The notes beneath the pieces are model-generated. The model worked only from the letters and a program-made list of their open reading frames with translations, searched no databases and was not told the DNA's origin. Positions 7,401 through 61,960 of a stretch of 62,031 nt of DNA are shown here, piece after piece (position 1 is the stretch's first letter; every line of letters begins with the position of its first letter). Source of the DNA: Rickettsiales bacterium (ex Bugula neritina AB1). GTDB lineage: Bacteria; Pseudomonadota; Alphaproteobacteria; CAJXXZ01; UBA1459. The stretch spans positions 1-62,031 of the forward strand of contig MDLE01000001.1 of the NCBI GenBank assembly GCA_001730065.1, in the 5' to 3' direction. The position numbers and the translations under genes were made by a program.

Positions 7401-7898
7401 ACGAATATAATCTAATTTATTTTTAGGTATACTTTCTTCATAAGATAATTTTAATACTATAGAATTAACGCATCTATTACTTTTAATTGATTTAAGAAAA
7501 TTTATAATAAACTCTACTTGATTTAAATCCATAATATAAAAATAAATTTTTTTATTTATAAAATACCAACATAATTTATCATCACCTGTTTCAAATACAT
7601 AATTCTTTACTATATCTTTTTCTCCTAATATAACAATTATTGGCACATCATCCGAAAGAGAATTAAGAAGTTTTTCTAATTCCAATAGTATTTTTGTAGT
7701 TGAATTTCTATAAAATATTCCTAATATGTATAACCATATTCCCTGTACTAAGGGTGCAGGATTCCATATAAATTTAGATGTATTATAACGATATTTCCAT
7801 AATAACATCATTAATGCAAAAATTATAAGAACAGCTATCGTATATACAATCATTAATTTCCATATATAAAAAAATTCTACAATACTAGAGAGTGCCAT
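4494..7898 (-). CDS. tssM: TssM/IcmF-like T6SS membrane-complex protein
   Basis: TssM spans the inner membrane and, with TssL and TssJ, forms the channel that anchors the T6SS baseplate. The 1134-residue protein has two N-terminal membrane segments (about 12-34 and 52-62), a cytoplasmic loop, a third membrane segment (about 316-336) and a long periplasmic region ending in a beta-rich tail, as in TssM. The loop matches the TssM nucleotide-binding layout: VPIIVILGEKDIVKNY stands where the P-loop should be and WYFINKKIYFYIMD where the DTAG strand should be, but the GxxxxGKT and DTAG residues are lost. It overlaps the upstream DotU-family tssL by 14 bases, which supports the assignment. Similarity is by layout, not by strong identity. 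Confidence 0.75.
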   Translation of the reverse strand: MALSSIVEFFYIWKLMIVYTIAVLIIFALMMLLWKYRYNTSKFIWNPAPLVQGIWLYILGIFYRNSTTKILLELEKLLNSLSDDVPIIVILGEKDIVKNYVFETGDDKLCWYFINKKIYFYIMDLNQVEFIINFLKSIKSNRCVNSIVLKLSYEESIPKNKLDYIRLTVGYCLPIYLVFKNLNWSIYLHNNIEDEILGFLIRENKNIREEYHALFNVINYKLINNDKYSIDFNGDYYSHFDNLVMTTETLMQVKDYKFRGVFFSLSSDYLYSIGENNNNYVANTFFISYMHKIVEEEVFLGTPIQGLVIIPRYKSLHKLLMFFLVFFGFFYLLIQYKNIASFYIRYNDFIENIQDITSNIDNKNSEERKNYVTYEILNRIGEINLSNMYSHFFPHKYMLKNIYEDLCEIEDLLSFFSFKHISKSTNKNYEEDLMNLYDYIIRVVEMENHIFSHKKTYRFGIYTKRSEKSIENAKLSFSSTLKEIHTNVLILYNRFAKSLEYHPIKITFKRFDDSFNIFMSKGIYTIEGIKNIINLHKKLLSFIINKIIIKDIIKIEKLSKNLKNSIIFSDNISNKITPELDEYTKNFMYEISHLKQQHLGFIFIFDINKKIIEFNKEVTSVIDDLKNFINEPIMNNYIPINSVVNINDNKNFSYWNLGQLQNVINQDISENTINNILTKYSPKVKNTLLFICKKNSSKSIFNKVLQYRITKPFEGLNDIKNFHDSLSNITILLDFFQSANDIETYNNMINIIKNDLYCIDNYIERELYKNIFFNINKYKLKLQNSIYENLFFTNDVNTVTSSIEEDLQNIIFINENFIREILMILNNRHLGVLKSKNFIKYINILQEIEKYKQGKNNSFNRFRDFIMSLENFDYYKNNKILTDKKVINNNIIDNNLYIFKEDLKNLCNKNIQKYLEKNYSQFHKEFKNILNYYPFNRNSSSIITTKMFMQFLDTNNEQINIFKNINIKDLNLYESNILNKLYFYKNNIFQNYKGHYIKTKFNILVKEPFNHKTLKPLENIIIDDIKYDINKLSEKDVSLYFHNELIIRIPLKSNNNKINYKINKIINKHYSITRKGHYLEMKFNNFWCFYRFLMKQKHIIEEDKVIFKYHVPLSNSHLHIHIIFDKNLFFSLPI

Positions 7899-8499
7899 AT
7901 ATCTTCCTTATTTTTGAAACAATTATAGATGTATTTTTCATATGTTGTTTTATACTAAAATAATACATTCCTTCATTTAACAAAAAAAAAACTATTAAAA
8001 TACTTCCACATATTTTTTTAAAACTCCAATAAGATTTATTATTTATAATACGAAAAGTTTCATAAGGTACTAAATTTATATCATATAAAATATTTTCTTT
8101 ATAAATTTCCATTAATTCTTTTTTGCGGGAAGTATGTAAACCTATTTCTATTCCAATAGTAGCAATTTCTATAAACATAACATTAAAAATATTATTATCA
8201 ATAATTTCATCTACATATTTTTGAAAAATAGTTTCTCCCATATTAGTACCAAATAAATAAAGCTCACCTGTATTATTTATCCATTCTTCAGGATTATTCA
8301 TATTTTGAATAAGAATTTCATCTCCCATAATAATAATAATTTGTATTATTTTTTTTGTATAATAACTATCGATATTTTTGTTCTTTTCCAGAAATTCTTC
8401 TTTAAAAGCCCACATATAATCGTAAACTTTTTCTTTTTGAAATGGTTTATGAGAAATATTTTTTATTTCATATAAAAATTTATGTAATTCCGTCAACAT
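7885..8499 (-). CDS. tssL: TssL/DotU-family T6SS membrane-complex protein
   Basis: TssL is a tail-anchored inner-membrane protein that binds TssM and links the T6SS membrane complex to the baseplate. The 204-residue protein is almost all helical and cytoplasmic. It has the family's helix signature (IIIIMGDEILIQ, then LYLFGTNMGETIFQKYVDEI, in place of the usual ALCALLDE and GE.FF..L) and a single C-terminal membrane segment (about 167-183). There is no peptidoglycan-binding extension. It is co-directional and overlapping with tssM and lies 45 bases after pth, so transcription is probably shared with rseP-pth. Confidence 0.8.
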   Translation of the reverse strand: MLTELHKFLYEIKNISHKPFQKEKVYDYMWAFKEEFLEKNKNIDSYYTKKIIQIIIIMGDEILIQNMNNPEEWINNTGELYLFGTNMGETIFQKYVDEIIDNNIFNVMFIEIATIGIEIGLHTSRKKELMEIYKENILYDINLVPYETFRIINNKSYWSFKKICGSILIVFFLLNEGMYYFSIKQHMKNTSIIVSKIRKIYGTL

Positions 8500-8544
8500 T
8501 TATAATATGATAAATTTTTTTTTTTTAAAAAATCGTTAATTTTT

Positions 8545-9030
8545 TTATATTTCATATATATTTTTTAAAATACTTTCTTTCATATTTAAAATATTTTTAT
8601 AATCACTGTTTTCTATAGTACTTAATACAAATGTATTTAAATCTATATTAATGGGTTTTGGTCCTACACCAATACGAACTCTATAAAAATTATCACCTAT
8701 ATATTGTTGAATACTTTTTATACCATTATGTCCATAATTTTTATCATTTTTTTCAATCTTATATTTTCCTAATTTTGTACGAATATCATCAAAAATAACA
8801 AAAATATTTTTAAAATTTCTATATTTTATAAATTCATATATATTTTTTCCAGATATATTCATTATAGAAGGGTTATAATAGTAAAATATTCCATCTTTTT
8901 CATATAAGTTATTTTGAATTTTTTTTACATTTTCAAAAGATAATAAGTAATAAATTAAAATATCACCACCAATATTGTGAACTGTTTTATATAAATTTGG
9001 ATTACCAAGACCTATTATTAATGTTTTCAT
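8545..9030 (-). CDS. pth: Peptidyl-tRNA hydrolase
   Basis: Pth releases tRNA from peptides dropped by the ribosome. The 161-residue protein is shorter than the usual 185-195. It begins LIIGLGNPNLYKTVHNIGGD, with the catalytic His at about residue 19 and the usual T-R-H-N changed to T-V-H-N. It keeps the MNISG motif, FDDIRTKLGKYK and the GHNGIKSI loop with its substrate-binding Asn. The basic C-terminal helix is trimmed. It lies 6 bases after rseP. Confidence 0.92.
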   Translation of the reverse strand: MKTLIIGLGNPNLYKTVHNIGGDILIYYLLSFENVKKIQNNLYEKDGIFYYYNPSIMNISGKNIYEFIKYRNFKNIFVIFDDIRTKLGKYKIEKNDKNYGHNGIKSIQQYIGDNFYRVRIGVGPKPINIDLNTFVLSTIENSDYKNILNMKESILKNIYEI

Positions 9031-9036
9031 ATATAA

Positions 9037-9999
9037 CTATACTATATTAAATAAGCATAGTATTTCAATTATGATTTCATTAATTAATGGAATACTTAGA
9101 ATAATCATTCCTATGATTGTTAATATATTTAAGATAATCAATAATACTCTTTTGTTTTTTTGGGACATTTTTCCAAAAGATAAAAATATATCAAAAACAC
9201 TGAACAACACCCAAAAACCATCTAGTGGTACAAAAGGTATAAGATTAAATAATCCTAAACTTAAAGATAGATTAATCAAAAATTTCAAAAGTAATAAAAA
9301 AATTGCTTTTTTATTAGATTGAGAATCAATAGATTTTGAAATAATTTTATTTATACTAATAAAAGATTTTACGTTATTAAAACTTCTTTTACTAATTAAA
9401 TTATAAATACCAACTATATTTTTTTTAAATAAATACCAACTATAAAATATATTGTTATTAAAACCACGAAGAAAATATCTTTCTTCTTTAAGTTTTTTAA
9501 AATTTTGTTCATTTACAAATCTATGTCCATCAAAAGTTACATCTTTGTCTTTATATTTATGAATAACAAATCCATCTTTTGTAAAATAATATATATTTTG
9601 TTCTGCTTTGTATTTATATACATCAATACCTACAAAATATGTTAAACCAATTATACCTACAAAAAAAAATAATATATTGAATAAAGGTCCTCCCATTGCA
9701 TATATAATTCTTTTTATAGGAGATGTTAATAACATTGCATCAATTTCAGAAATATTATTATGGTTATCACTAAAACTTACATAACCACCTAAAGGAATTA
9801 GATTAAGGGACCATACAGTTTTATGTTTATCTTCAGATTGGAAAATATTAGGGCCAAAACCTACTGCAAATTCTTTTACATCAACACCTACATATCTTGC
9901 AGTAATTAAATGTCCAAGTTCATGAATAAATGTTAAAAATAATACAATAGAAATAAAAAAAAACATGTGTAAAATATTCATATATTTGCATACTACCAT
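9037..9999 (-). CDS. rseP: RseP-like site-2 zinc metalloprotease lacking a clear PDZ domain
   Basis: This family cuts substrates, such as anti-sigma factors or signal-peptide remnants, within the inner membrane. The zinc motif HELGH lies in the first membrane helix (FLTFIHELGHLITARYVGV, about residues 22-40). The second site NLIPFVPLDGFW is near residues 253-264, and several membrane segments are clear. At 320 residues it is about 100 shorter than E. coli RseP. The middle region is short and I cannot see a PDZ domain. Translation may start at the internal Met at 9981 instead. It heads the operon with pth, tssL, tssM and recG, and is divergent from dnaJ. Confidence 0.88.
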   Translation of the reverse strand: MVVCKYMNILHMFFFISIVLFLTFIHELGHLITARYVGVDVKEFAVGFGPNIFQSEDKHKTVWSLNLIPLGGYVSFSDNHNNISEIDAMLLTSPIKRIIYAMGGPLFNILFFFVGIIGLTYFVGIDVYKYKAEQNIYYFTKDGFVIHKYKDKDVTFDGHRFVNEQNFKKLKEERYFLRGFNNNIFYSWYLFKKNIVGIYNLISKRSFNNVKSFISINKIISKSIDSQSNKKAIFLLLLKFLINLSLSLGLFNLIPFVPLDGFWVLFSVFDIFLSFGKMSQKNKRVLLIILNILTIIGMIILSIPLINEIIIEILCLFNIV

Positions 10000-10038
10000 A
10001 GATTTATAAATAAAATAAACGTATAATAAAATAAATTA

Positions 10039-10075
10039 TTTTATAAAAATTTTTTGGATGTTTTTATAAAAATTT
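10039..10075. promoter_or_regulatory. Paired AT palindromes upstream of dnaJ
   Basis: The palindrome TTTTATAAAA, extended by ATTT on its right side, occurs twice with starts about 23 bases apart in the gap between rseP and dnaJ. A TATAAT hexamer follows just before the dnaJ start. The spacing of about two helical turns would suit a dimeric regulator, but such palindromes arise easily in DNA this AT-rich. Confidence 0.25.
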
Positions 10076-10093
10076 GTTATATAATTATTATAT

Positions 10094-11164
10094 ATGTCAA
10101 TGTCAAAAGATTATTATAGTGTTTTAGAAATAAATAAAAGTGCTAGTGATGAAGAAATACAAAAACAATATAGAAAACTAGTTTTTAAATATCACCCTGA
10201 TAAAAATCCTGGTAATAAAGAAGCGGAAGAAAAACTAAAAAAAATCAATGAAGCTTATGATGTATTATCTAACCCACAAAAACGTAAAAATTATGATACA
10301 ACTGGTAATCCAGAAGGTTCTCATGGATTTGGTGGTGATGGTGGTCATTATTACAGTAATATGGGTGGTTTTAATGTAGAAGATATTTTTGACATGTTTA
10401 CGGGTGGAGGAAAGAAAAACCATCAAGAAGTGAATCTTAATATTGAAAAACAATCTACTATTACCTTTAATGAATCTTATACGGGAAAAAATATTAATTT
10501 ATCTTTTGAAAAAAAATTAAAATGTGAAACCTGTAATGGTAGTGGTAGTAGATCAAATAGAAAAAGTAATTGTAGAATGTGTGCAGGTAGAGGTGTTGTA
10601 AATTCTTCTATTGGTGGTTTTTTTTCCGTAAATATTACCTGTAATAAATGTAATGGTGAAGGAAAAGAAAATATAGATCCCTGTAACAGTTGTAGAGGTA
10701 CAGGTGGTGTTTTAAAAAACGTCACTATTCAAGTAAAAATACCTGCAGGTATAGAAAATGGAAGTAAAATACGTGTAGTCGGTGAAGGACATGTGGGTGT
10801 TAATGGAGAACGTAATGGTGATTTATTTTTACATGTTTATGTTAAAAGTAGTGATAAATTTTATCGTGAAGGTCGTAATTTAATAATAAAATTACCAGTA
10901 GAACTAAGAAATATGTTATTAGGTGGTACTATTACAATTCCATTGCCAAATGGAGAAAATCATAATCTTACAATTAAAGAATGTCAAAATTTTAACAAAA
11001 ATATTATTGTAAAAAATCTTGGTTTTAAAGATATTAATAGATCTTTAACGGGAGATTTAATTATCATACCAGAAATTATAATACCTAAAAATTTAACGGA
11101 AAAACAAAAAGAAATTTTAAAACATTTTTTTGAAGAACAGGAAAAAAATAGTAGTTGGTGGTAA
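10094..11164 (+). CDS. dnaJ: Chaperone DnaJ (Hsp40)
   Basis: DnaJ delivers unfolded proteins to DnaK and stimulates its ATPase. The 356-residue protein has the full type I layout: a J domain (residues 1-70) with HPD in YHPDKNPG, a short Gly-rich linker, four zinc-binding repeats (CETCNGSG, CRMCAGRG, CNKCNGEG, CNSCRGTG, about 138-200) and the C-terminal substrate-binding barrels. Translation may start at either of two close ATG codons; MSKDYYSVL is the canonical beginning. It is followed after 8 bases by dnaB. dnaK and grpE are not in the window. Confidence 0.96.
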   Translation: MSMSKDYYSVLEINKSASDEEIQKQYRKLVFKYHPDKNPGNKEAEEKLKKINEAYDVLSNPQKRKNYDTTGNPEGSHGFGGDGGHYYSNMGGFNVEDIFDMFTGGGKKNHQEVNLNIEKQSTITFNESYTGKNINLSFEKKLKCETCNGSGSRSNRKSNCRMCAGRGVVNSSIGGFFSVNITCNKCNGEGKENIDPCNSCRGTGGVLKNVTIQVKIPAGIENGSKIRVVGEGHVGVNGERNGDLFLHVYVKSSDKFYREGRNLIIKLPVELRNMLLGGTITIPLPNGENHNLTIKECQNFNKNIIVKNLGFKDINRSLTGDLIIIPEIIIPKNLTEKQKEILKHFFEEQEKNSSWW

Positions 11165-11172
11165 TATAAAAG

Positions 11173-12498
11173 ATGGTAAATCTTTACAATTTACATTTAG
11201 AGCAAATTATTTTAGGAACAATATTAAATAATAATGACGTATACGGTATAATTTTAAATAAAATTAATAAAGAAGCCTTTTATGATTTAAATCATCAGAT
11301 CATTTTTCAAGAAATCATAAATAATTTACATAGAATTGGTGTAGCAGATTATATTATTATTCGTGATAATGTCATTAAAGAAAAAGTTAAAGATGAATAT
11401 TTAATAGAAATAACAAAACAAAACACTCATGAAAGTAACATAAATGAATATGTAGATATGTTGAATCATCTTCATAAACGTAGAAAAGCTATTATAATTG
11501 GAGAAGCCTTAAGTAAAAAAGCTTATAAAGAAAATTTTTCCATCGCAGATATTCATGAATTTGAGGAAGAAATATTTGAATTATTAACAAACAATCAAAA
11601 AAACCAAACATTATCTTTTGAGGATAGTGTCAATTTTACCTTTAAAAATTTAAATAAAATGTTAGAAGAAAAACGTCATATGTCAGGAATGACTACTGGA
11701 TTTCCTCAATTAGATAACTTACTAGGTGGTTTACAAAAAGGTTCTTTAATTGTTATTGCTGCAAGAACATCTATGGGAAAAACCGCCTTTGCTACTAATA
11801 TAGCCGTTAATACATCTATGAATAAAGAATATGGAGGTGCTGTTGTTATATTTTCCTTAGAAATGCCTCAAGAACAAATTACAACACGTATTATTAGTAG
11901 TTTAAGTGATATATCCGTAAGTGATCTTTTATATGCTCGTATTACAGAAAGAGAAGTGGCAAGATGTGTGTCAAGTATGAAAAAGTTTTCTTCAACTCCC
12001 TTATATATTCATGATGCAGCAGATATAACAATTGGTGAAATCTTAACTCTCTTAAGAAATTTAAAACGAAAATATCAAATTAAATTAGTAGTTATTGATT
12101 ATTTACAGTTAATAAATAGTGGTAATGATAATTTTAATGAAAATCGTGTGAATGAAATTGGACGTATAACACGTCGTTTAAAATTAATTGCAAAAGAATT
12201 AAATATTTGTGTAATAGTACTTTCTCAGTTATCACGTTCACCTGAAAAGCGTGAAGATCCAACTCCAAAATTATCGGATTTAAGAGAATCAGGAAATATT
12301 GAACAAGATGCAGATGTGGTATTATTTGTTCATCGTGATAAATATTATAATAATGATAAACAAGATGATAGTTCAAAAAATTTACAGGAAGATAACCTAC
12401 AAAATGCAAAAATTATTGTAGGTAAAAATCGAAATGGCCGTCTTGGTATTGTTAATTTAATATTTACAGAAGAATATACACGTTTTAATAATTCATAA
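11173..12498 (+). CDS. dnaB: Replicative DNA helicase DnaB
   Basis: DnaB is the hexameric helicase that unwinds the replication fork. The 441-residue protein has the N-terminal helical collar domain (1-105), a linker, and the RecA-type motor with P-loop AARTSMGKTAFA (about 196-207), Walker B LVVIDYLQL, and the SQLSR and LRESGNIEQDAD motifs. Length is normal and no intein is present. It follows dnaJ by 8 bases and its end overlaps the convergent gene by 14 bases. Confidence 0.96.
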   Translation: MVNLYNLHLEQIILGTILNNNDVYGIILNKINKEAFYDLNHQIIFQEIINNLHRIGVADYIIIRDNVIKEKVKDEYLIEITKQNTHESNINEYVDMLNHLHKRRKAIIIGEALSKKAYKENFSIADIHEFEEEIFELLTNNQKNQTLSFEDSVNFTFKNLNKMLEEKRHMSGMTTGFPQLDNLLGGLQKGSLIVIAARTSMGKTAFATNIAVNTSMNKEYGGAVVIFSLEMPQEQITTRIISSLSDISVSDLLYARITEREVARCVSSMKKFSSTPLYIHDAADITIGEILTLLRNLKRKYQIKLVVIDYLQLINSGNDNFNENRVNEIGRITRRLKLIAKELNICVIVLSQLSRSPEKREDPTPKLSDLRESGNIEQDADVVLFVHRDKYYNNDKQDDSSKNLQEDNLQNAKIIVGKNRNGRLGIVNLIFTEEYTRFNNS

Positions 12499-13090
12499 CT
12501 TTATCTAATATAAATGGAAACACAGCTATTTCTCCTATTTTAGGATTCCTAAAAGAATATACTTCTTCTAAGTAAAGTAAATAATTTAAAAAGAAAAAAT
12601 ATTTATTTTTATTATAAACACCTAATAATATATTGGTTTTTTTCCCTAAAATAGAATAGTATACTATATTTTCATAATATCTAAATGCCGTAACAGTATT
12701 TTGAATATTAATAATATTTTTTTTTGCAATAGGTATATTTTTATTAACAAATTTTATCATTAAAAAGTACACTTCTTCTTCGATAGGTTTTGGGAAATAT
12801 TTTAAAAATTCTTTTAAGTTAATATCTAAAAAATATTTTTTATGTAATTCTTCACAAACTTTTTCATATGTAAAATTAATTTTTTTTCTATCTTCTTCAA
12901 AATTTATTAATAAAATATGTGGTAAATCTAATAAATTAATATATTTTTCTTGTGGATTAATAATAATAAATTTTTTTTTTTCTAAAGGTATTGTAGTAAT
13001 TATTTTTATATCAATATCTTTATAAATTTCATACTTTATATCTAAAGTTTTTAAGAAAGAATAAAAATATTTTTCATCTAATGAAATCAT
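12485..13090 (-). CDS. Unknown soluble protein downstream of clpP
   Basis: Function not recognised. The 201-residue protein has no signal peptide or clear membrane segment and no motif I can name. It is rich in Lys, Ile and Phe and has the look of an alternating alpha/beta protein. It starts 3 bases after clpP ends, so the two are almost certainly co-transcribed. Its 3' end overlaps convergent dnaB by 14 bases. A ClpP-related role would be only guilt by association. Confidence 0.65.
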   Translation of the reverse strand: MISLDEKYFYSFLKTLDIKYEIYKDIDIKIITTIPLEKKKFIIINPQEKYINLLDLPHILLINFEEDRKKINFTYEKVCEELHKKYFLDINLKEFLKYFPKPIEEEVYFLMIKFVNKNIPIAKKNIINIQNTVTAFRYYENIVYYSILGKKTNILLGVYNKNKYFFFLNYLLYLEEVYSFRNPKIGEIAVFPFILDKVMNY

Positions 13091-13093
13091 ATA

Positions 13094-13720
13094 CTATAAT
13101 AGTCTATTAATTATACCGTCAATAAAACCTAATTCTATAGCTTCTGAGGGATTTAAAAACCAATCACGTTCATTTTTCAATGTATATTCTTCTAATGAAA
13201 TAGGTGTTGTTTTTTGTTTTTTTTTACGTACTAAAATAGTTTCATACATAATATTTGTTAATTGCTTTTTTAAGTAATTCATTTCTTCTGCTTGGATGGT
13301 AATGTCTGTTGTTTGTCCTTTAGCACCACCATGAGGTTGGTGGAGCATTATACGAGCATTAGGTAAACAATATACTTCTTTTCCTGCGGATAAAATCAAT
13401 GCACCAGCAGATGCAGCCATACCTACGCATATACATTTTGTAGGTGATTTAACATTTCTTATAGCATCAAAAATTGCAAGACCCGCATAAACATCTCCCC
13501 CATATGAGGTAATATATATATTTATTTCTGTCTTATTATCAATACTATCAAGATATAATAATTGTGCACTAATTTTTGCCGCTAAATTAATATCCACGTC
13601 ACCAAATATATACACAATACGTCCATTTGTTAATAGGTGTGAAAATATATCATGAGATACACGATATCCATCTGTGTTATCGGTTACAATAGGTACAACA
13701 TTTAAAACTTTTTTTTTCAT
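13094..13720 (-). CDS. clpP: ATP-dependent Clp protease proteolytic subunit
   Basis: ClpP forms the tetradecameric serine-protease chamber used with ClpX or ClpA. The 208-residue protein keeps the catalytic triad: Ser104 in GMAASAGALI, His127 in MLHQPHGG, and Asp in KNERDWF. The GGDVYAGLAIFD region and C-terminal LGFIDGI are also typical. Neither clpX nor clpA is in the window. The SspB-like protein at 55.7 kb would be a possible adaptor for the same machine. Confidence 0.95.
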   Translation of the reverse strand: MKKKVLNVVPIVTDNTDGYRVSHDIFSHLLTNGRIVYIFGDVDINLAAKISAQLLYLDSIDNKTEINIYITSYGGDVYAGLAIFDAIRNVKSPTKCICVGMAASAGALILSAGKEVYCLPNARIMLHQPHGGAKGQTTDITIQAEEMNYLKKQLTNIMYETILVRKKKQKTTPISLEEYTLKNERDWFLNPSEAIELGFIDGIINRLL

Positions 13721-13801
13721 TATCTATTATTATATAAAATAATTAATAAAAATTCTTTTAAATTTGACAAATTTACATTAATATTTTAAAATTATAACAA
13801 A

Positions 13802-14160
13802 ATGAGTGCTATTAAAAATTTAACAAAAATGGATAAAAATTCTATATCAATACCTAAAGAATTAATAAATAACTCTCCAAAAGAAGAAAATATATGGATA
13901 TTTTTGTTAAAAATATTAATTATTACATTAGGTTTTATATTATTTAAATATTTTTATGGAAATTATAAAAAAAAAGAAGAAGAAAAAGAAAATATTAAAA
14001 AATATCTTAAAGTTGGTAAAAATATTATTTATAATGGTATAGAAGCAACGATTGATAAAATTGATGAAAATAATATACGTCTTAAAATTAGTCAAGATAG
14101 TTGTATATATATAAATAAAGAATTTATGATGAATAATTTACACCTATTAAAAATTCATGA

Positions 14161-14164
<4 letters not shown>
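13802..14164 (+). CDS. yajC: YajC-like Sec translocon accessory protein
   Basis: YajC is a small inner-membrane partner of SecDF-YidC. The 120-residue protein has a polar N-terminus, one membrane helix (about 31-49, WIFLLKILIITLGFILFKY), a charged helix, and the compact domain typical of YajC: LKVGKNIIYNGIEATIDKID, where the usual text is LKVGD.VVT.GGI.G.V..I. No tgt or secD neighbour is present; it stands alone between clpP and the convergent ATP synthase operon, whose last gene it overlaps by 4 bases. Confidence 0.72.
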
Positions 14165-15841
<1,677 letters not shown>

Positions 15842-16549
15842 TTATCCTTTATCTTTTATATTTCTATTAATAATATCATTAGTTATATTCTCTTGTCTTA
15901 TAGAATTATAAGTAAGTTGTAGTTTTTCCCATAATTCTTCACTATTCTTTAAAGATCGAATAGTTACATCCATCCTTTGACGTGTATCCATTATTTGTGC
16001 CTTTAACAAACATTTTTCTAAATTATAATACATCCAACAATTATTAATGTATATATTTTCAGAGTTATATTTTTTAAAATCTAAACTATTAATAACCATT
16101 GCTTCTTTATAAGGGATATGTACTATTATATTCACATATTTATCTATAAAAATTTCTTTAAATATTTCACTATTATTTTGTAATTTACCTAAAAATTTAA
16201 TATTATCATATGATTTAATAATTTCTAAACTTTTATTTCCTAATACATATATAATATCTTTATTTTTTTCAATATATTCATATAAAATATTTTTAATATT
16301 CTTATTAAAACTTCCCACAAAACCCATATCTGAAAATATAAAAATATGAATATTCTTATATTCATTATTAGGTACTTCTTTAATATTATCTAAAAAAACT
16401 TCTTTTATTTCATTAATATGATTTTTAATAATATCATAATTCTTATACAAAGAACGTATACGTGTTATAGATATATTTTTTAGAGATTTTGACATTTTAT
16501 AAATACTTTTAATTTTATCTATTTTTTTTTTAAGATTTTGTAGTAACAT
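15842..16549 (-). CDS. atpG: ATP synthase F1 gamma subunit, shortened
   Basis: Gamma is the rotating central shaft. The 235-residue protein is about 55 shorter than usual. Both long helices that form the coiled coil are visible: KKIDKIKSIYKMSKSLKNIS at the N-terminus and TRQRMDVTIRSLKNSEEL near the C-terminus, the latter matching the family's ...M..A..NA..... helix. The globular middle part is trimmed. It overlaps atpA by 20 bases and precedes atpD by 3. Confidence 0.9.
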   Translation of the reverse strand: MLLQNLKKKIDKIKSIYKMSKSLKNISITRIRSLYKNYDIIKNHINEIKEVFLDNIKEVPNNEYKNIHIFIFSDMGFVGSFNKNIKNILYEYIEKNKDIIYVLGNKSLEIIKSYDNIKFLGKLQNNSEIFKEIFIDKYVNIIVHIPYKEAMVINSLDFKKYNSENIYINNCWMYYNLEKCLLKAQIMDTRQRMDVTIRSLKNSEELWEKLQLTYNSIRQENITNDIINRNIKDKG

Positions 16550-20759: not shown

Positions 20760-23396
20760 TTAAAAATATTGTTCTTTTTCTGGATTAAAGAAGTGATTTA
20801 ATACATCTGCTAGTGTTTTACAATACTTAATTTCCAAACCAAAATTTTTGTTAGTTTTAATATGTGAAGCAAATACAGGGTTATTTTTTACATTTTCAGG
20901 TAAAATAACTGTTTTAATTTTACCAGAACGTTTTGCAGACGATAACTTTGTAATTAAACTAGTTTCATCACAAAAAAACTGTCCTACTTCATTAATTTCT
21001 CCAATGACTAATGTATCTTGAGAAATTGGAATACGTCTAATAGAAGAAATACAAGATATTAAAGAAGATAATAAAATACGTCTATATTCTCTTTTTCCTG
21101 CATCATTTGGTAAACGAATTACTACATGATTACTATTTAGATGAGAAGATAACATTGAAAAACCTAAATCACCTACTACTTCTTTTGTTAAAATTGTCAC
21201 TAAATTACGTAAAATTGCCGACAAAAAAGTAGCATAACTATTATTTGCATTATATTTTTCGTTACCATCGATAATTTGTATATCTCCATAATTAGAACGC
21301 GTATTAACATTCATGGAATAAATTGGAAAAACTTCTGTATTACCATTTTCTTTTATATATATACACATCATTGCACCAATATATTTGTTTTTACCATTTG
21401 GTAAAATAGACACTACACCTTCATCAAAAGAAATAAACTCTTCAACATTATTATCATTCATTTCTAATTTAATATTATTATTTTTATTTTTCATTTCTGT
21501 TCTCATTTTTATTCCAAAACTTCTTACTATTTCCTCTACATAGCGTTTTAATACACGAGCACCATCTATATTAGAATGTATACTAATAATTTTTTCTAAG
21601 ATATCTTTTGAAATAAAAAATTTTTCACCCAATCCATAAAAAGGTTTATTATTTCTTGTAACTAATTTTACTTTATCATCGTATTGAATTAATCCTTTTT
21701 CATACATAGAATTAAAAATAGATTTTAAAAAAATTACACTTTTTTCTTCATTTAATAAACCTTTTACTGTAAATATTTTTATACGATTTAATAAAGTTTC
21801 ATCTATATTTTCTAGTACATTTGCAGTCATATACATGCATATATTCTTTGTACCTAACAGAATCTCAAGATATAAATCCATTAATGTACCATTGTCATCT
21901 GTAATTGTTAATAATGTCTCTTGAATAGAAGATTTTAAACGCATTTCATCTACACTAGTATGAGACTTGTGGACTTTATCAATTTCATCTATTAAAAGAA
22001 CCATTAAATCACTACATAATAATGCTTCTAATAATAAACCTGGTTTTGCACCTACGAATGTTTGTGTAGAACCCATTAACGTAGTAATCTCTTTGATAGT
22101 ATTAATAGAAATTTTAAACATATGTTTTGGGTAATGTTTATTTACATAATTTATCACTTCTCCAAATTTATTTTTATTATTTAAAACTGAAGAAGGTAAA
22201 GATTTTTCATCAGAACTTAAAATTGTAAATATTTTTGCTAATACAGTTGCCATGTGAGTTTTTCCTACACCTGGAGGTCCTATATATAAAATAGGCGGTG
22301 ATTGGAAAACACCCGTTTCCATTGCATCAAGACAAGTTTTTAAGAAGTATTCCTTTTCTTTTTTAAACCCTTCAATAAATTCATCAAGAACTTTTTCCAG
22401 AACTTCTTTATTAACTTTACGAATAGTTATTTTTTTTGGTAAACGAAATAAAATATCCATAACATTTTTAAAGTACCTTGCCTCATCACTCATACGAGGA
22501 CTGTTACACTCTCTTTGATATACGGGAAAAGAACGTTCATGTAGTTTTAAAATTGCTTCAATAGTTTCTGGTAAAATACGTGTTTTTTCCTTTAAAGCTT
22601 TTTTCACGGATTTAAGGCTGTACTTATTAGATTGATTTTGATTAGATGAAGAATTAGGTAGTCCTATACCAGGAATATCAAAAGGATAATTACTTTGAGA
22701 AGTATCATTATTATCATTTTGATTATTATTAATATTTATATTTTCTAAAGAAATACCATTATTCATAATATAAATGTTTAAATTATCCATTAATTCCTTA
22801 TTTTCTTCATAAGAACTATTGAAAAATACAGCTTTGTTAATATTTATATTATTTTTTTTAGTTTCTTCAATAAGATACTTGACTACTTCAATATTTTCAG
22901 AAGAGATCATATATTCTTTTAAAATAAATCTTTCTAATGTTGTAATTTTATTTTTTTTCAAAATACTAATAAGTGTATCTATAAATTCTTTTTTTATTTC
23001 TACTGAATCATTAATGATAATGCTATAGTTGTCATTATTATTAATACTAGGAAATAAATTTAAATTTTCTATATATTTATCTTTACTAATTAACATACTA
23101 TATCTATCACTTTTAGGTAATACAAATGTATCAGACAAAAATATTAAAATTAAAAAAATATTTTCTTCTGTTATTTTTATTAGTGATTCTTCAGTAATTT
23201 TTTTAGGATCTTGTAGCACTAAAATACCATTTTTATATTTATTTAAAATATTGTTATTGTTTATCCAATTTATATCTAATATTATACCTTTATATTTATC
23301 ATTACTTATATCATTGATATCATTGGTTCTACCAATTATTAATTCATAATTAAAGTATAAAAATAAATAAAAAAATTTAAAATTTCGTTTATTCAT
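20760..23396 (-). CDS. Lon-like AAA+ protein with degenerate protease domain
   Basis: The AAA+ module of this 878-residue protein is that of Lon: P-loop GPPGVGKT (373-380), Walker B MVLLIDEIDKVH, a sensor Asn in MTANVLENIDETLLNRIK. The C-terminal 200 residues align with the Lon protease domain (GAMMCIYIKENG, then DTLVIGEINEVGQFF, then GKIKTVILPEN). The Ser-containing DGPSAG loop is replaced by NDAGKREYRR, so Ser becomes about Glu770, while the catalytic-type Lys is kept near 817 in TSLITK. It is probably an unfoldase rather than a protease. The N-terminus lacks a recognisable LON domain; it has a hydrophobic segment at 7-21 and a second at 79-93, followed by an Asn/Ser-rich linker (about 215-260). 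It may be membrane-anchored. Confidence 0.8.
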   Translation of the reverse strand: MNKRNFKFFYLFLYFNYELIIGRTNDINDISNDKYKGIILDINWINNNNILNKYKNGILVLQDPKKITEESLIKITEENIFLILIFLSDTFVLPKSDRYSMLISKDKYIENLNLFPSINNNDNYSIIINDSVEIKKEFIDTLISILKKNKITTLERFILKEYMISSENIEVVKYLIEETKKNNININKAVFFNSSYEENKELMDNLNIYIMNNGISLENININNNQNDNNDTSQSNYPFDIPGIGLPNSSSNQNQSNKYSLKSVKKALKEKTRILPETIEAILKLHERSFPVYQRECNSPRMSDEARYFKNVMDILFRLPKKITIRKVNKEVLEKVLDEFIEGFKKEKEYFLKTCLDAMETGVFQSPPILYIGPPGVGKTHMATVLAKIFTILSSDEKSLPSSVLNNKNKFGEVINYVNKHYPKHMFKISINTIKEITTLMGSTQTFVGAKPGLLLEALLCSDLMVLLIDEIDKVHKSHTSVDEMRLKSSIQETLLTITDDNGTLMDLYLEILLGTKNICMYMTANVLENIDETLLNRIKIFTVKGLLNEEKSVIFLKSIFNSMYEKGLIQYDDKVKLVTRNNKPFYGLGEKFFISKDILEKIISIHSNIDGARVLKRYVEEIVRSFGIKMRTEMKNKNNNIKLEMNDNNVEEFISFDEGVVSILPNGKNKYIGAMMCIYIKENGNTEVFPIYSMNVNTRSNYGDIQIIDGNEKYNANNSYATFLSAILRNLVTILTKEVVGDLGFSMLSSHLNSNHVVIRLPNDAGKREYRRILLSSLISCISSIRRIPISQDTLVIGEINEVGQFFCDETSLITKLSSAKRSGKIKTVILPENVKNNPVFASHIKTNKNFGLEIKYCKTLADVLNHFFNPEKEQYF

Positions 23397-39222: not shown

Positions 39223-41088
39223 ATGAATGATAATTTTATAAAAATTTTAAAATATATTTTATTTCTTTTTTGTTTTATGTCAATATTAAGTTTTTTTTAT
39301 TATTTAAATCATAAAATGGTTAAAAATGAATATCAGGAAGAAATACTATCTAAGTTCTATGACTATTCAAAACAATATAAACTTAACAATGTAAATATAT
39401 ACAACAATGGTCGTGTAGAATTTGAAAAAGTTAGTGGACAAAAAAGTTTTACAACTATACCTGATTCTTTAGAAGGTAATATTATTGATATGTTATTAAA
39501 AAAGAGTATTAATGTACGTTATATTAGAGGTAATCAAAAATCAGGTTTATTTCAAATGATAAATAATTTTGTAAAAGAATTTTTATTTATTATTTTAATA
39601 ATGTTAATTTTTTCTTATTATGGTAGAAATAGCGGTATTGGAAATATTATGAAGTATAATACCAATAAAGCTACTAGTTTAAGTGTTAAAACACGTTTTA
39701 GTGACGTTGCAGGTATTGATAATTTTAGAAGAGAATTAGAGGAGATTGTAGATTTTTTAAAAAATGGTAGTAAATATACAAGTGTAGGTTGTAATATTCC
39801 TAAAGGTGTACTTTTATGTGGATCTCCTGGTGTAGGAAAAACTTTATTAGCAAAAGCTGTAGCGGGAGAAGCACAGGCGTCATTTTTTTTTGCATCTGGA
39901 TCAGAATTTGTAGAAATGTTTGTAGGATTAGGAGCCTCTCGTGTAAGAGATTTATTTACAAAAGCACGTAATTCCAAACCTTCAATTATTTTTATTGATG
40001 AAATTGATGCAATAGGTAGAAAAAGAAAAAATACTATGCATAGTAATCAAGAACAAGAAAGCACCTTAAATGAATTATTAAATCAAATGGATGGATTTGG
40101 CGATTCTACAGGTATTATTGTAATTGGTGCTACAAATTTACCTAGTGTTTTAGATGATGCTTTATTACGTCCAGGACGTTTTGATCGTATTATTCAAATT
40201 CCTAAACCTGATATAAAAGGAAGATCTGCTATCTTATCTTTAGTTCTTAAACGTATAAAAGTACCTTATAATATTGATATTCATAAAATTGCTTCTATGA
40301 CTTTTGGTTTTTCAGGAGCAGACATTACAAATTTAATTAATGAAGCATTATTTATTTTAGTAAGGGAAAAAAAACATTTTTTAACAAATCAAGAAATAGA
40401 AAAAGCCTTTGAAAAAATTGCTTTTGGTATTAGTTCTCATAAAAAATATGATAAATTAGATAAATTAAGAATTGCAAGACATGAAGTTTGTCATGCTTTT
40501 ATGACTTATTATTATCGTAGTATACTTGATGAGGAATTTTATAAAGTTACAATTCTTAGTTATGGGGATGCTCTTGGTTTTTCTTCTCATTTTGCAAATA
40601 AAGAAAGAGTTTCTCTCACAAAAGAACAAATATATGCAACTATTGATATGTTATTAGCAGGTAGATGTGGAGAAGAATTATTTTTTGGAGAAAAAAAAAT
40701 CACAACAGGTGCTTCTAATGACTTTGAAAAAGCTACCCGTTATGCACTAGCTATGATATATAAATATGGTATGACAGAAACAAATGATAAATTTGTATTA
40801 TTAGAGGAAAATTTTAAAGATTTATATTCGGATAAAATGAAAAATGATTCTTATATAACCGCAAAAGAGATTTTAAACGAATCCTATAAACGTGTTATGA
40901 AAATAATAAAAAAAAATATTAAAATTATTAATAAAATTACTTATTTTCTATTACAAAAAGAAACACTTTATAAACATGATATAGAAGCTATTATAAATGG
41001 ATCCTTTAATATAGGTTATGGAAGTTGTATTTCTATAAAAGTTAAGGATTTATCACCATTTGATACAACCGTTTTAAATATAAGATAA
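39223..41088 (+). CDS. ftsH: ATP-dependent zinc metalloprotease FtsH
   Basis: FtsH is a membrane-anchored hexamer that unfolds and degrades membrane and regulatory proteins. The 621-residue protein has two membrane helices (about 10-28 and 114-129) around a short periplasmic domain, then an AAA+ module with P-loop GSPGVGKT (201-208), pore motif FVEMFVG, Walker B IIFIDEIDAIG and second region of homology RPGRFDR. The zinc site is HEVCH (420-424). The third-ligand region TTGASNDFEKAT is intact. It lies 42 bases after the TssG-like gene and 43 before tatD. Confidence 0.96.
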   Translation: MNDNFIKILKYILFLFCFMSILSFFYYLNHKMVKNEYQEEILSKFYDYSKQYKLNNVNIYNNGRVEFEKVSGQKSFTTIPDSLEGNIIDMLLKKSINVRYIRGNQKSGLFQMINNFVKEFLFIILIMLIFSYYGRNSGIGNIMKYNTNKATSLSVKTRFSDVAGIDNFRRELEEIVDFLKNGSKYTSVGCNIPKGVLLCGSPGVGKTLLAKAVAGEAQASFFFASGSEFVEMFVGLGASRVRDLFTKARNSKPSIIFIDEIDAIGRKRKNTMHSNQEQESTLNELLNQMDGFGDSTGIIVIGATNLPSVLDDALLRPGRFDRIIQIPKPDIKGRSAILSLVLKRIKVPYNIDIHKIASMTFGFSGADITNLINEALFILVREKKHFLTNQEIEKAFEKIAFGISSHKKYDKLDKLRIARHEVCHAFMTYYYRSILDEEFYKVTILSYGDALGFSSHFANKERVSLTKEQIYATIDMLLAGRCGEELFFGEKKITTGASNDFEKATRYALAMIYKYGMTETNDKFVLLEENFKDLYSDKMKNDSYITAKEILNESYKRVMKIIKKNIKIINKITYFLLQKETLYKHDIEAIINGSFNIGYGSCISIKVKDLSPFDTTVLNIR

Positions 41089-57154: not shown

Positions 57155-57198
57155 AATAATATGAACATGAAATAAAAATATGGTATCATATTTTAGTA

Positions 57199-58815
57199 AT
57201 GATTGAAAAAAAACAAGTGAATTATTTTGTTTTATTTATGATTATATTTAATAATAAACATACAAATTGTTTTAAAAAAAATTATTTTTTACCTTATATA
57301 TCAAAAAATAATTTGTTATTAAAAAATGATTTTTTTTATTTTTTTAAAAGAAGAAAATTAATTCATCAAAAAGCAAAATTTTTTGTACAAAGTTTAGTAG
57401 AAGATATTTTAAAGGATAATAAAAATTTTTACATACATGCAAATAATATAAAAAAAATAAAAAAAATTCGTTATAATATTTCTAATAATATCTCTTATAT
57501 ATATTTTTATTTAGATGAAAGTATGGATAATATAGTTATTTCTTATAATATATATGATATTCATTCCGCCTATAAAATTTATAATATTTTGCAATATTAT
57601 GATGTTCCTATGTATAATGTAGAAGAACAAATTAAATTTTTTCAAATAGGAATTATGTTCTTTACACTTTTAGTAACAATATATAGTGTATATAAAATGA
57701 AATTTGCTCAAAATCTTCATTTAAATAATTTTTCTAAAAAATTATTAGATGACAAAGAGTATGAAAATTTAAAATTAGATAATTTATTATCCTGTTATAT
57801 GCCTACTACAATGGAAAAAATAAATGATTTTGTAAATTTATGTATTTCTACAAATATGCAAAATAATAATAAATTTTTTTTTATAGAAATATTCAATAAA
57901 TTATTTAAAAAAAATACTATAAATAATATAAAACCTATTCATAAAAATATTATTTTATATGGAAATGCAGGTACTGGTAAAACAACTTTTGCCTCTTGTT
58001 TAAGAGATTATTTAGAAAATAATATGAAAAATTTTAAAAAAATATATTATATAGATATTTCCGCTACAGAGTGTTTAGGATCCGTATTTGTAAACTCAGG
58101 TATAGAGTACGTAAAAAATCTTTTTGAGGATATAAAGAAGCACTTAAAAAATTATAAAAATCATATGATAATTTTAAATATAAATGAAATAGAACAAATC
58201 TTTATAGAACATACGGTTTCAGGAGATTTTAACACTTACAAGGATGATGTACGTAATGAATTTAAATACCAACTAGATCTTTTAAGTAAAATAAAGGAAA
58301 AAAATTTTATTTTAGTGGCAACTTCTAATATAGAAATGAATAAAAAAAATACAAGTTTATTTTTAAATTCTGCATTGATGTCAAGATTCTTTATTGTAAA
58401 AGTTGAATTAGATCCTGAAAAAATTCAAAATATTATTAAAAATATTGTAGAACAGTATTTAAAATTTGATGATTATAATGAAGAAGAAAATTTCTTAAAA
58501 AAAAAATTAATTAATGATATTACAGAATTTTTAAAGGAAAAATGTTATATATATAATATTTCTAAATCAGAAAATACACTAAATTTTATAAAAAAATCTT
58601 TGTATATTATATTTGTAAAAATTAAACTTTATTTTTTAAAATTATTTTATTATGATATATATACTAAAAATATAGAAGAAGCAATTATGCCTAGAAAAAT
58701 AGAAGGAGCTTTTATTCATATAATTGCTAATCAAAATTCAAATTCTGTTATTAATAAAAATAATCTAGAAGAATTTATAATAAAATTTAAAAAATATTAT
58801 GATTTATGGTTTTAA
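57199..58815 (+). CDS. Membrane AAA+ ATPase with FtsH-like topology and degenerate Walker B
   Basis: Function not assigned. The 538-residue protein has an N-terminal hydrophobic segment (about 8-18), a periplasm-sized domain (about 20-145), a clear membrane helix (147-165), and an AAA+ module: P-loop GNAGTGKT (255-262), a Walker B IILNINEIE in which the metal-binding Asp is Asn329, sensor ATSN, and Arg finger in SALMSRF (Arg396). The layout is that of FtsH, but there is no HEXXH zinc site and no protease domain; the C-terminal 140 residues are unlike FtsH. It is 30 bases before a second AAA+ gene of the same design with an intact Walker B, so the two may form a mixed ring. Confidence 0.8.
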   Translation: MIEKKQVNYFVLFMIIFNNKHTNCFKKNYFLPYISKNNLLLKNDFFYFFKRRKLIHQKAKFFVQSLVEDILKDNKNFYIHANNIKKIKKIRYNISNNISYIYFYLDESMDNIVISYNIYDIHSAYKIYNILQYYDVPMYNVEEQIKFFQIGIMFFTLLVTIYSVYKMKFAQNLHLNNFSKKLLDDKEYENLKLDNLLSCYMPTTMEKINDFVNLCISTNMQNNNKFFFIEIFNKLFKKNTINNIKPIHKNIILYGNAGTGKTTFASCLRDYLENNMKNFKKIYYIDISATECLGSVFVNSGIEYVKNLFEDIKKHLKNYKNHMIILNINEIEQIFIEHTVSGDFNTYKDDVRNEFKYQLDLLSKIKEKNFILVATSNIEMNKKNTSLFLNSALMSRFFIVKVELDPEKIQNIIKNIVEQYLKFDDYNEEENFLKKKLINDITEFLKEKCYIYNISKSENTLNFIKKSLYIIFVKIKLYFLKLFYYDIYTKNIEEAIMPRKIEGAFIHIIANQNSNSVINKNNLEEFIIKFKKYYDLWF

Positions 58816-58845
58816 ATTTAAATTATGATATAATTAAAATCAAAA

Positions 58846-60438
58846 ATGATGTTTTTAATTAGGTATTTATGTTTTTTAACTTTTGTGGTTTATTCCCTAG
58901 ATAAACATACATCTCAAGATCAAGAAAATAATATTTTTGATGAGATTGGTAAAGATCAAAAAGAAAGAGAAGATTATACTAATTATCTTTTAGGGGCGTT
59001 TGGAGAGGGTAATAACAGTCCTTTAATTTCTTTCCTAGATTACAGAGATCCTATTAATAATAAACCTTTTATAGTTAAGTTTTTAATTAAAAAGGATAAT
59101 TATGGTTATACTATATATTTATATTGGTATGATAAAAAAAAAACTAAATATAAAATTTTTGATAGTAATATTCTAAATGAATTATCACAAATTTTAGTTT
59201 ATAATAATATTCGTGATGGAAGTACAAGTAATTCTTTTATTAATTTTATTAAATATATTCTAGGTTTTATAATAAGTGTAGTTTTATTTGTTTTTACAGG
59301 AAAATATATATATTATGAATATACACGTTTATCAGGTTTAGTTTCTTTAAAATCATTTATGGAAAATAAAAAAAGTGAATTAAGTTTTAAAGATTTATTA
59401 TTAGGATTTGACGAAACTACTCACAATACTATTAAAGAATCTTTTATCACTCCTTTAATAACACAAGAAGAGGAAGAAAATATAAGTTTTTTTCCTTCCT
59501 TGTTATTATATGGACCGGGTGGTACTGGTAAAACAACTTTATCAATTATAATAAGTGAATTTATAAAAAATATTAGTCAAAAATTTCATCAATGTAATGT
59601 ATATATGTTGCGTCCTGCTAATTTAACTCCAATAATACCAGGTATCTCTAAAACAAAAGTTATAGGGCATATGTTTAAACAATTAATTAAAACTGGACAA
59701 AATGATCAAGATACATTCCATATATTATTTTTTGACGAATGTGAAATGTTAATTTTATCGTCTGAGCCTGAGCTTGTTTCTGCATTTAAAGCAGGATATA
59801 CGGATGCTAAAACTTCTAATTTAGATAATATATGTGTTATAATTACTACAAATATACCTATAGATATTGAACCAGATTCTAAATTTGCATATAATATAGA
59901 TTCCGCCGCTTTATCAAGATTAATACCTATAGAAGTAATATCAAATACTTCTCTTAAAGGTATAAAAAGTATTACTGAAAATTTGATAAAAGATAATTTA
60001 AAAAATACTTATTTTGGAAACATGTTAGAAAATGATCCTGAAATGAAGAAAAAATTAGTCCATCAAATTTCTAAAAATTTACATGACTTATCAAATAAAT
60101 TTATAAATCGTAATGAGTATCAAAAAAAGCTTCGTAATGATCCTAATACTAAACAATTAAGTTTTGCACCTACGGATATGATTACACCAAGAACAATATC
60201 TTCAATTATAAATACAACTAATTCAAAAGTATTATCACATTGCTTTAAAAATTACATTAAAGAAGTAGAAGAAAATATTGAAAAAGAAGATTCAGAAAAA
60301 GAAGATTCAGAAAAAGTTAACTTTGAAACAAATAAAAATGATATTACAAATGCTGAAATATTGAAATTCACTAATGCAGCATTAGATAAATTTGGTGAAA
60401 AACTCACACAACAATATCAATCTTCTCTAAAACCATAA
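58846..60438 (+). CDS. Membrane AAA+ ATPase with FtsH-like topology, intact active site
   Basis: Function not assigned. The 530-residue protein has a hydrophobic N-terminus (about 3-17), a domain of about 115 residues, a membrane helix (about 135-152) and an AAA+ module: P-loop GPGGTGKT (223-230), Walker B ILFFDECEML (Asp297, Glu298), sensor TTNIP and Arg in SAALSRL (358). No zinc protease motif follows. The C-terminus is helical and carries the repeat EKEDSEKEDSEK. It would be a membrane-bound remodelling ATPase, paired with the preceding gene. Confidence 0.8.
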   Translation: MMFLIRYLCFLTFVVYSLDKHTSQDQENNIFDEIGKDQKEREDYTNYLLGAFGEGNNSPLISFLDYRDPINNKPFIVKFLIKKDNYGYTIYLYWYDKKKTKYKIFDSNILNELSQILVYNNIRDGSTSNSFINFIKYILGFIISVVLFVFTGKYIYYEYTRLSGLVSLKSFMENKKSELSFKDLLLGFDETTHNTIKESFITPLITQEEEENISFFPSLLLYGPGGTGKTTLSIIISEFIKNISQKFHQCNVYMLRPANLTPIIPGISKTKVIGHMFKQLIKTGQNDQDTFHILFFDECEMLILSSEPELVSAFKAGYTDAKTSNLDNICVIITTNIPIDIEPDSKFAYNIDSAALSRLIPIEVISNTSLKGIKSITENLIKDNLKNTYFGNMLENDPEMKKKLVHQISKNLHDLSNKFINRNEYQKKLRNDPNTKQLSFAPTDMITPRTISSIINTTNSKVLSHCFKNYIKEVEENIEKEDSEKEDSEKVNFETNKNDITNAEILKFTNAALDKFGEKLTQQYQSSLKP

Positions 60439-60449
60439 AGGTAGTAATA

Positions 60450-60719
60450 TTGAAAAATTTTAGAAAAATATATTTACAAGAATTACTAGAAATTAATAAT
60501 CTTTTATCATTATACAATTATGAAGAACAGTTTGCTATTATGAAAATTACTACTATCAAAAATCATAAATATATTTATTTTTTAGTGAACATAGAGCATA
60601 TGGTATATTTTTACTCTTTAAAAAATAATATTATAAATATAATTAGTTTATATTATTGTAATAATTTTATTATCTATATATATGCGATGCAAAATAATAT
60701 ATGGGAAGAAATAAAATAA
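60450..60719 (+). CDS. Small unknown protein with TTG start
   Basis: Function not recognised. The 89-residue protein starts at TTG preceded by a Shine-Dalgarno-like AAAGGT, 11 bases after the second AAA+ gene, so it is probably co-translated with it. It is rich in Tyr, Ile and Asn, without a signal peptide; two segments (LYYCNNFIIYIYAM and others) are mildly hydrophobic. It may be a small partner of the ATPases, from position only. Confidence 0.5.
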   Translation: MKNFRKIYLQELLEINNLLSLYNYEEQFAIMKITTIKNHKYIYFLVNIEHMVYFYSLKNNIINIISLYYCNNFIIYIYAMQNNIWEEIK

Positions 60720-60772
60720 ATTTTTTGTATAAATTAGTTGTATTATAAAAAAATTTGATAGAATAAAAATAT

Positions 60773-61960
60773 ATGAAATATACATTATATTATTTATTTT
60801 TATTAAATTATCTTACAGCAGATGTAAAAAAAACAAGTTATGTACCTAATAATAGTAATTCAATGTTTGATTTTTTACCATTGAATTTTAAAGGTGATAT
60901 GTCTTTTAAGAGCGAAAGAGTACCAGATAATAGAAGTTATATTGTACCTAGTGCAACAATAGAGTATATATATAATACCGCTAAGAATGACATAATTATC
61001 AAAATATTTCCTCCAGGTTTTTTTTATAGTGAAAATAATGCATCAGATTCTTATTTTTTAAAGAAAAAAAATGACTATACTTCTTCACCTTATATATCAA
61101 GTTTTACAGGAAGTTTATGGGATAAAATAAATTTTTCATGTTTATTAGAAAATTTAATAGGTTTAGACATGACAAGTTCTAGATCATTATTACCTAATTT
61201 AACTAATAAAGATATTAAATTTGAGGATCTATCTATTAAATTAAATCGTATGTTAAATAATAATAAACTAAACATTTATTTTTTACGTCATAATAAAAAA
61301 ATAACTTATATGGGAGGTATGGTTTTTTTTCCATTTTATTTTAATTTGATGCAAAAAAGCTTTATAAATGTTTTATCATTATGGCTTCATAATACTTGGA
61401 AATATAAAAATTTAAATATATCTTTAACAGGTCTTATGGATAATAAAGAAGAAAATAGTATGGAAATAATGATATTTTTGTCTATTAATATATTAGAAAG
61501 ATTGAAAATAACTTTTAAAAATAATTTAAATAAAAAAAATTTAGATATGGTATTTTTATTTATTATTTTTAAAAAATGGAAAAATATAGAAAATTTTAGT
61601 GTTATGTTAAATACTACTTCAAAAAATCCTCAGCAGGATTTTATAGATACTTTTTACAACTTATATACATTAATAAATAGATTTCATTTTGGTTTTAAAT
61701 TAGTTTATAACATAACAAATATATATAATTTAGAATTATTATTTATATTACCAAAAATTTTCACACAAAATACAGGAGTTTTAAAATATTATTCCTTTAA
61801 CCCTTTTGTCAATGATGTATTTTCACCAATCAATAATAATGTATTTTCACCATTAGAAAAAACAGTAAATGTTCTTAAATTTACTGTAAAGATTACTGGT
61901 GAATCCAAAAAAACAAAACCTGTTATTGCAAAAAATGAAACAAATTTATTATTATATTAA
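60773..61960 (+). CDS. Orphan exported protein, possibly outer-membrane beta-barrel
   Basis: Function not recognised. The 395-residue protein begins with a signal peptide (MKYTLYYLFLLNYLTAD, likely cleavage near residue 16). A Ser/Asn/Pro-rich N-terminal domain is followed from about residue 165 by a series of short segments with alternating hydrophobic and polar residues and aromatic ends (for example LNIYFLRHNKKITYMGG, NISLTGLMDN, FGFKLVYNITN), which could be barrel strands. The tail repeats a NNVFSP-like phrase. It lies last in the AAA+ cluster, 53 bases after the small gene. Confidence 0.55.
   Translation: MKYTLYYLFLLNYLTADVKKTSYVPNNSNSMFDFLPLNFKGDMSFKSERVPDNRSYIVPSATIEYIYNTAKNDIIIKIFPPGFFYSENNASDSYFLKKKNDYTSSPYISSFTGSLWDKINFSCLLENLIGLDMTSSRSLLPNLTNKDIKFEDLSIKLNRMLNNNKLNIYFLRHNKKITYMGGMVFFPFYFNLMQKSFINVLSLWLHNTWKYKNLNISLTGLMDNKEENSMEIMIFLSINILERLKITFKNNLNKKNLDMVFLFIIFKKWKNIENFSVMLNTTSKNPQQDFIDTFYNLYTLINRFHFGFKLVYNITNIYNLELLFILPKIFTQNTGVLKYYSFNPFVNDVFSPINNNVFSPLEKTVNVLKFTVKITGESKKTKPVIAKNETNLLLY

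Follow-up and report, generated by a model that had tools for sequence, protein, structure and literature searches.

Among the AAA motors that lack a protease, Msp1/ATAD1 and Bcs1 are anchored in the membrane and have membrane proteins as substrates, while TRIP13/Pch2 (bacterial Cap6) is soluble and acts on HORMA proteins. A further group, the FtsHi pseudoproteases of plants, either carry a substituted M41 zinc motif or lack it, while kinship with FtsH can still be recognised, and a presumably inactive FtsH has been reported for Prochlorococcus SS120, which has a reduced genome (PMC8197885). The two ATPases described here, AAA1 and AAA2, have a membrane anchor, a presumed non-cytoplasmic domain and a classic AAA core in common with FtsH and FtsHi, and they resemble plant FtsHi in lacking a working protease and putatively in forming heteromers. 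Unlike FtsHi, however, they have no M41 domain whatsoever, and their kinship with FtsH is not demonstrable from sequence. TRIP13/Pch2 is likewise a protease-less remodeller, and is the nearest PADLOC profile for both cores and the nearest structure for AAA1, but AAA1 and AAA2 are membrane-anchored and have no HORMA partner. Msp1/ATAD1 and Bcs1 are similar in being anchored and protease-less, and Msp1 is among the fold matches of AAA2, yet these motors are organellar, have other N-terminal regions and were compared in the AAA core only.

The window, i.e. the whole stretch of DNA that was analysed, is an entire contig (C1) of 62,031 bp that ends 71 nt past its last gene, and belongs to a genome of 435.5 kb in 8 contigs, which is 71% complete and has a GC content of about 20-22%. 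Beyond this contig, the analysis covered selected stretches of the genome and the ends of its contigs. At its 3′ end lie four plus-strand open reading frames (ORFs) separated by 30, 11 and 53 nt; coordinates, shared strand, gaps and the TTG start of the third ORF were all recovered as originally predicted. The features of this stretch, with the basis for each, are:

57181..57189, plus strand: extended -10-like box TGGTATCAT, 18 nt 5′ of the AAA1 start (promoter-motif inspection)
57199..58815, plus strand: AAA1, membrane-anchored classic-AAA ATPase without protease, 538 aa (Pfam AAA, E 7.8e-11)
57340..57636, plus strand: presumed periplasmic domain of AAA1 (low-confidence model, in the order helix, three strands, helix)
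57637..57693, plus strand: AAA1 transmembrane (TM) segment, residues 147-165 (flank charges -2 before, +2 after)
58826..58834, plus strand: extended -10-like box TGATATAAT, 20 nt 5′ of the AAA2 start (promoter-motif inspection)
58846..60438, plus strand: AAA2, paralog of AAA1, 530 aa, acidic C-terminal tail (25% identity, whole-length alignment)
58846..58902, plus strand: AAA2 signal peptide or first TM segment, residues 1-19 (clear, unlike in AAA1)
59236..59292, plus strand: AAA2 TM segment, residues 131-149 (precedes the AAA core; positive charge on the AAA side)
60450..60719, plus strand: candidate small ORF, 89 aa, TTG start (SD-like AAAGGTAG 5′, own -10 box absent)
60756..60764, plus strand: extended -10-like box TGATAGAAT, 17 nt 5′ of the 395-aa gene (promoter-motif inspection)
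60773..61960, plus strand: 395-aa protein with signal-peptide-like N-terminus, no family (family and structure searches)

AAA1 and AAA2 are genuine, mutually paralogous classic-AAA ATPases, each with its AAA core behind a TM helix and without M41. Both exceed the gathering cut-off of Pfam AAA (43 bits for AAA1, 35 bits for AAA2), and neither an M41 domain nor an HExxH motif is present in either by Pfam and motif check, so that the original prediction of two ATPases without a protease holds. The two are mutual nearest kin in hhalign comparisons (probability 94-95% across 174-221 columns) and sisters in a tree of the AAA core with a support of 96/97, although both branches are long and long-branch effects call for caution. 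The FtsH-like topology that had been proposed is borne out in part, by a TM segment before the AAA core in both proteins, whereas the first TM segment is clear only in AAA2, AAA1 having just a short hydrophobic stretch that falls under the threshold. The C-terminal AAA domain of both proteins is likely cytoplasmic, since the positive charge lies on the AAA side of the TM segment.

The catalytic motifs of the two proteins differ in a reciprocal manner. AAA1 has the Walker A motif GNAGTGKT (residue 255) and a pore loop, VFVNSG, that retains its aromatic Phe (residue 296), but in its Walker B motif, IILNINE, Asp is replaced by Asn and only Glu is retained; AAA2 has the Walker A motif GPGGTGKT (residue 223) and an intact Asp-Glu in Walker B (ILFFDE), but its pore loop, IIPGIS, is missing the aromatic residue. 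The sensor-1 Asn and one Arg finger (SALMSRF 391 in AAA1, SAALSRL 353 in AAA2) are found in both. These complementary defects, with the pore Phe but no Walker B Asp on one side and Asp-Glu but no pore aromatic on the other, hint at an obligate heteromer, as such a loss would be expected for subunits that function only together, although in a single genome drift could produce the same pattern.

The same contig encodes a canonical FtsH with HEVCH (39223-41088), to which AAA1 and AAA2 are additional rather than replacements, and Lon and ClpX are also retained in the genome. In trees of the AAA core, AAA1 and AAA2 sit on terminal branches of 5.0-7.0 changes per column, whereas that of the FtsH of the same genome measures 0.7-0.8; because the latter branch is short, the divergence is particular to the pair and not a matter of genome-wide speed alone, and it leaves kinship of the cores with FtsH or TRIP13/Pch2 not demonstrable either way. 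No relatives of the pair were found across 60 whole genomes of the family, order and class, and a two-row profile of AAA1 and AAA2 gave matches no larger than the P-loop in the order mates. Pattern-seeded scans, which detect close relatives only, gave no relative of either protein in GTDB genome contigs and none of AAA2 in viral contigs. Matches of AAA2 in plasmids, and the matches in PADLOC and PHROGs, were to generic AAA only. The composition of the locus had been said to fit no named system, and none matched.

AAA1 and AAA2 may form a duplicated, fast-evolving inner-membrane AAA motor pair without a protease that extracts or remodels membrane proteins, a reading that we hold at about even. 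For each subunit, we infer a periplasmic N-terminal domain of ~100 residues, followed by the TM helix and a cytoplasmic AAA ring. Powered by ATP, a heteromeric ring of both would draw membrane proteins, or proteins associated with the membrane, through its pore, so that substrates would be extracted, unfolded or re-folded rather than degraded, as by an FtsH-like or Msp1-like motor minus the protease. AAA1 would contribute the gripping pore aromatic, with hydrolysis presumably weakened by the Asp-to-Asn change in Walker B, and AAA2 would contribute the competent ATPase site. Of the membrane machine that had been proposed for this locus, the pair of protease-less membrane AAA+ ATPases is supported, but the four-gene system is not. 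Structure prediction, suggested as a check on all members, gave a poor full-length model of AAA2 (pLDDT 38.6, with AAA1 as the only relative used), for which a search of PDB folds nevertheless placed classic-AAA rings first (Vps4, p97, Pch2 and Msp1; best E 5e-3, prob 1.00), and a model of the AAA1 periplasmic domain alone (pLDDT 53) that matched no PDB fold, FtsH included. Several observations weigh against the motor pair: the full-length model is too poor (pLDDT 38.6) to prove the ring or the periplasmic fold, the first TM segment of AAA1 is weak, the pair was found in one genome only, the separate promoter boxes described below oppose tightly coupled expression, and the degeneration of motifs also fits relaxed constraint.

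A more specific version of the motor reading holds that, in a highly reduced alphaproteobacterial symbiont, a membrane AAA+ motor arose that is non-proteolytic and obligately heteromeric, with grip and hydrolysis split between its subunits, as an independent parallel to the Ycf2-FtsHi import motor of chloroplasts. This version is unlikely. Although it measures about 0.4-0.6 Mb and has lost the majority of its genes, the genome keeps two membrane motors beyond FtsH, Lon and ClpX. Should these constitute a functional heteromeric unfoldase, they would illustrate how AAA motors without a protease originate in host-dwelling bacteria, as in chloroplasts, and would make the order of events testable.

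As to descent, AAA1 and AAA2 could be FtsH paralogs that have lost M41, i.e. FtsHi-like pseudoproteases, which would either join the intact FtsH in modified hexamers or constitute a motor of their own. This is a serious candidate, placed somewhat short of an even chance, and it is compatible with a non-proteolytic motor, as both can hold. The lean toward FtsH is due to the architecture, since the order of TM segment, about 100 aa, TM segment and AAA core is the same, with the first of these segments clear only in AAA2; in addition, FtsH is the top family of AAA1 in profile comparison (score 76.7), and both N-terminal domains are predicted to run helix, three strands, helix. FtsH periplasmic domains consist of two helices and five strands (PMC13097134), and the low-confidence models of the N-terminal domains are compatible with such an alpha+beta domain. 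A clade of AAA1 and AAA2 with FtsH is left unrejected by the AU test (p-AU 0.205), but it is without tree support. Against FtsH descent, the N-terminal domains do no better than shuffles when scored with the profile of the FtsH extracellular domain (Z 0.03 and 0.15), the modelled domain has no FtsH fold match, AAA2, the nearest family of which is ambiguous, fits TRIP13- or DnaX-type sequences equally well or better, and the finger position holds a single Arg instead of RPGRFDR. Homology of the N-terminal domains to FtsH_ext was accordingly dismissed, the profile and shuffle test having found none; PF06480 (FtsH extracellular) has no Pfam match in AAA1 or AAA2, though this weighs little, as the FtsH of the same genome itself reaches only 24.5 bits against a cut-off of 25.5.

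It is unlikely that the pair goes back to a classic-AAA remodeller, of the TRIP13/Pch2 type or another, which acquired an anchor, and that it remodels one particular partner, perhaps the exported or the small protein. Among PADLOC profiles, TRIP13 scores best with both proteins (E 8.8e-10 and 8.8e-6), Pch2 (4xgu) is the best solved structure for AAA1 (E 1.3e-7), and there is ungapped similarity near the pore loop and Walker B. The TRIP13 profile is promiscuous, however, in that it also matches many p97- and FtsH-type proteins, and the grouping with TRIP13 in the tree is unsupported (27/0). Moreover, there is no nucleotidyltransferase nearby, and no HORMA partner was matched among the neighbours in the window, a search bounded by the contig end.

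The original prediction had joined all four genes into one operon for a single envelope machine, which is improbable. The common strand, the short gaps and the membrane and exported products speak for it, but a separate TG-extended -10 box precedes AAA1 (at -18), AAA2 (at -20) and the 395-aa gene (at -17), the barrel signal is absent, and the order of the four genes was not found in the relatives searched. The UDG gene and two more genes 5′ of AAA1 are also equally close, as the co-directional genes starting at 54900, 55692 and 56492 (UDG) are followed by gaps of 3, -1 and 44 nt. The simplest prediction is three transcripts, namely AAA1, AAA2 with the small ORF, and the 395-aa gene. Separate transcripts and a lack of conserved order had been named beforehand as grounds for abandoning the proposal, and both are seen here in part, by prediction only.

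The promoter boxes belong to a broader pattern, in which a -10-like hexamer was defined by a match of at least 5/6 beginning 12-24 nt before the start codon. Such a hexamer precedes 25/30 window genes without an SD-like motif, compared with 29% of other ATGs, and 3/10 of the window genes with an SD motif; a perfect TATAAT is found in 13/30 of the non-SD genes versus 3.8%. The same enrichment is seen elsewhere in the genome, where the remaining contigs give 64% vs 24%, and in the family mate G001, with 61% vs 26%; Holosporaceae show a weaker one (37% vs 15%). A generic sigma-70 scan was uninformative (75 sites vs 82 in shuffles). Bacterial genes without a leader are on record (PMC3160421). Leaderless or near-leaderless transcription is predicted to be widespread in the window, with -10 boxes e.g. 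ahead of the genes at 10094, 27755, 31602, 50297, 57199, 58846 and 60773.

The small TTG-started protein is supported by its length of 89 codons, against a maximum of 79 when its gap was dinucleotide-shuffled 2,000 times, and by the SD-like AAAGGTAG, but the GC content at its three codon positions (0.20, 0.11, 0.16) is atypical and not clearly coding; if real, the ORF would probably be read off the AAA2 transcript. For the exported protein, the signal-peptide-like start was confirmed and the barrel-like strands were not, as there are 6 amphipathic strand windows versus 5.9 in shuffles. Searches of Pfam, NCBIfam, PADLOC, PHROGs and PDB sequences gave no match for the 395-aa protein, and it has no relative among seven order mates or, by pattern-seeded scan, in viral contigs. 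An unnamed exported neighbour is unremarkable here, since many window proteins have hydrophobic N-termini and no family, and on present evidence the 395-aa protein is a mere neighbour of AAA1 and AAA2, adjacency being the sole link. A fifth gene past 61960 was rejected, since the final 55 nt include 52 that repeat the end of contig C8, the minus strand of which encodes an RND-type pump; the 52 nt before the final 3 bases of the contig (61977-62028) are identical to the C8 end and represent an assembly-break repeat.

Both AAA frames are full length with normal GC1 > GC2 > GC3, and selection presumably acts on them, since frames of 538 and 530 codons are intact at about 20% GC. That they are currently functionless genes degenerating toward loss from a reduced genome is highly improbable: the very long branches and the substitutions in Walker B and the pore loop would fit, but two complete frames of >500 codons in 20% GC DNA with normal codon-position GC, and Walker A, sensor-1 and Arg finger intact in both, argue against it.

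This bacterial family may tend to carry additional AAA+ genes that lack a protease. In G001, contig L012 (G001:C51) carries four additional, unusual AAA+ genes close together (6535-16038), namely a 631-aa signal/TM-anchored, a 438-aa, a TM-bearing Lon-like and a Lon-like gene without the Lon serine motif; two AAA+ genes of this cluster have a TM segment and two Lon-like ones lack the catalytic serine motif. Gene order is not common to L012 and the window, and kinship of the membrane AAA+ genes with AAA1 and AAA2 was not demonstrated: L012:6535-8430 and L012:8508-9824 group with the pair at 92/96 in the tree, but kinship is not claimed because all branches are long. On the minus strand, window 20760-23396 is homologous to L012:13714-16038 (minus strand), both being Lon-like AAA+ genes without the catalytic serine motif (GPSAG). 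The genome of the window has a normal Lon elsewhere, and the serine-less protein is a Lon pseudoprotease common to the family. A protein of another alphaproteobacterium (L066/L083) was considered as a bridge in the form of a protease-less FtsH and rejected, as an M41-like domain with HEILGH is still present in it, which makes it an FtsH paralog with an altered motif. Such paralogs share one conserved neighbourhood in a different genus of Alphaproteobacteria (L083:7270-9438 and L084:6987-9221), where HEILGH replaces HEAGH, making the zinc motif one residue longer, and where they adjoin a conserved gene of 475-499 aa.
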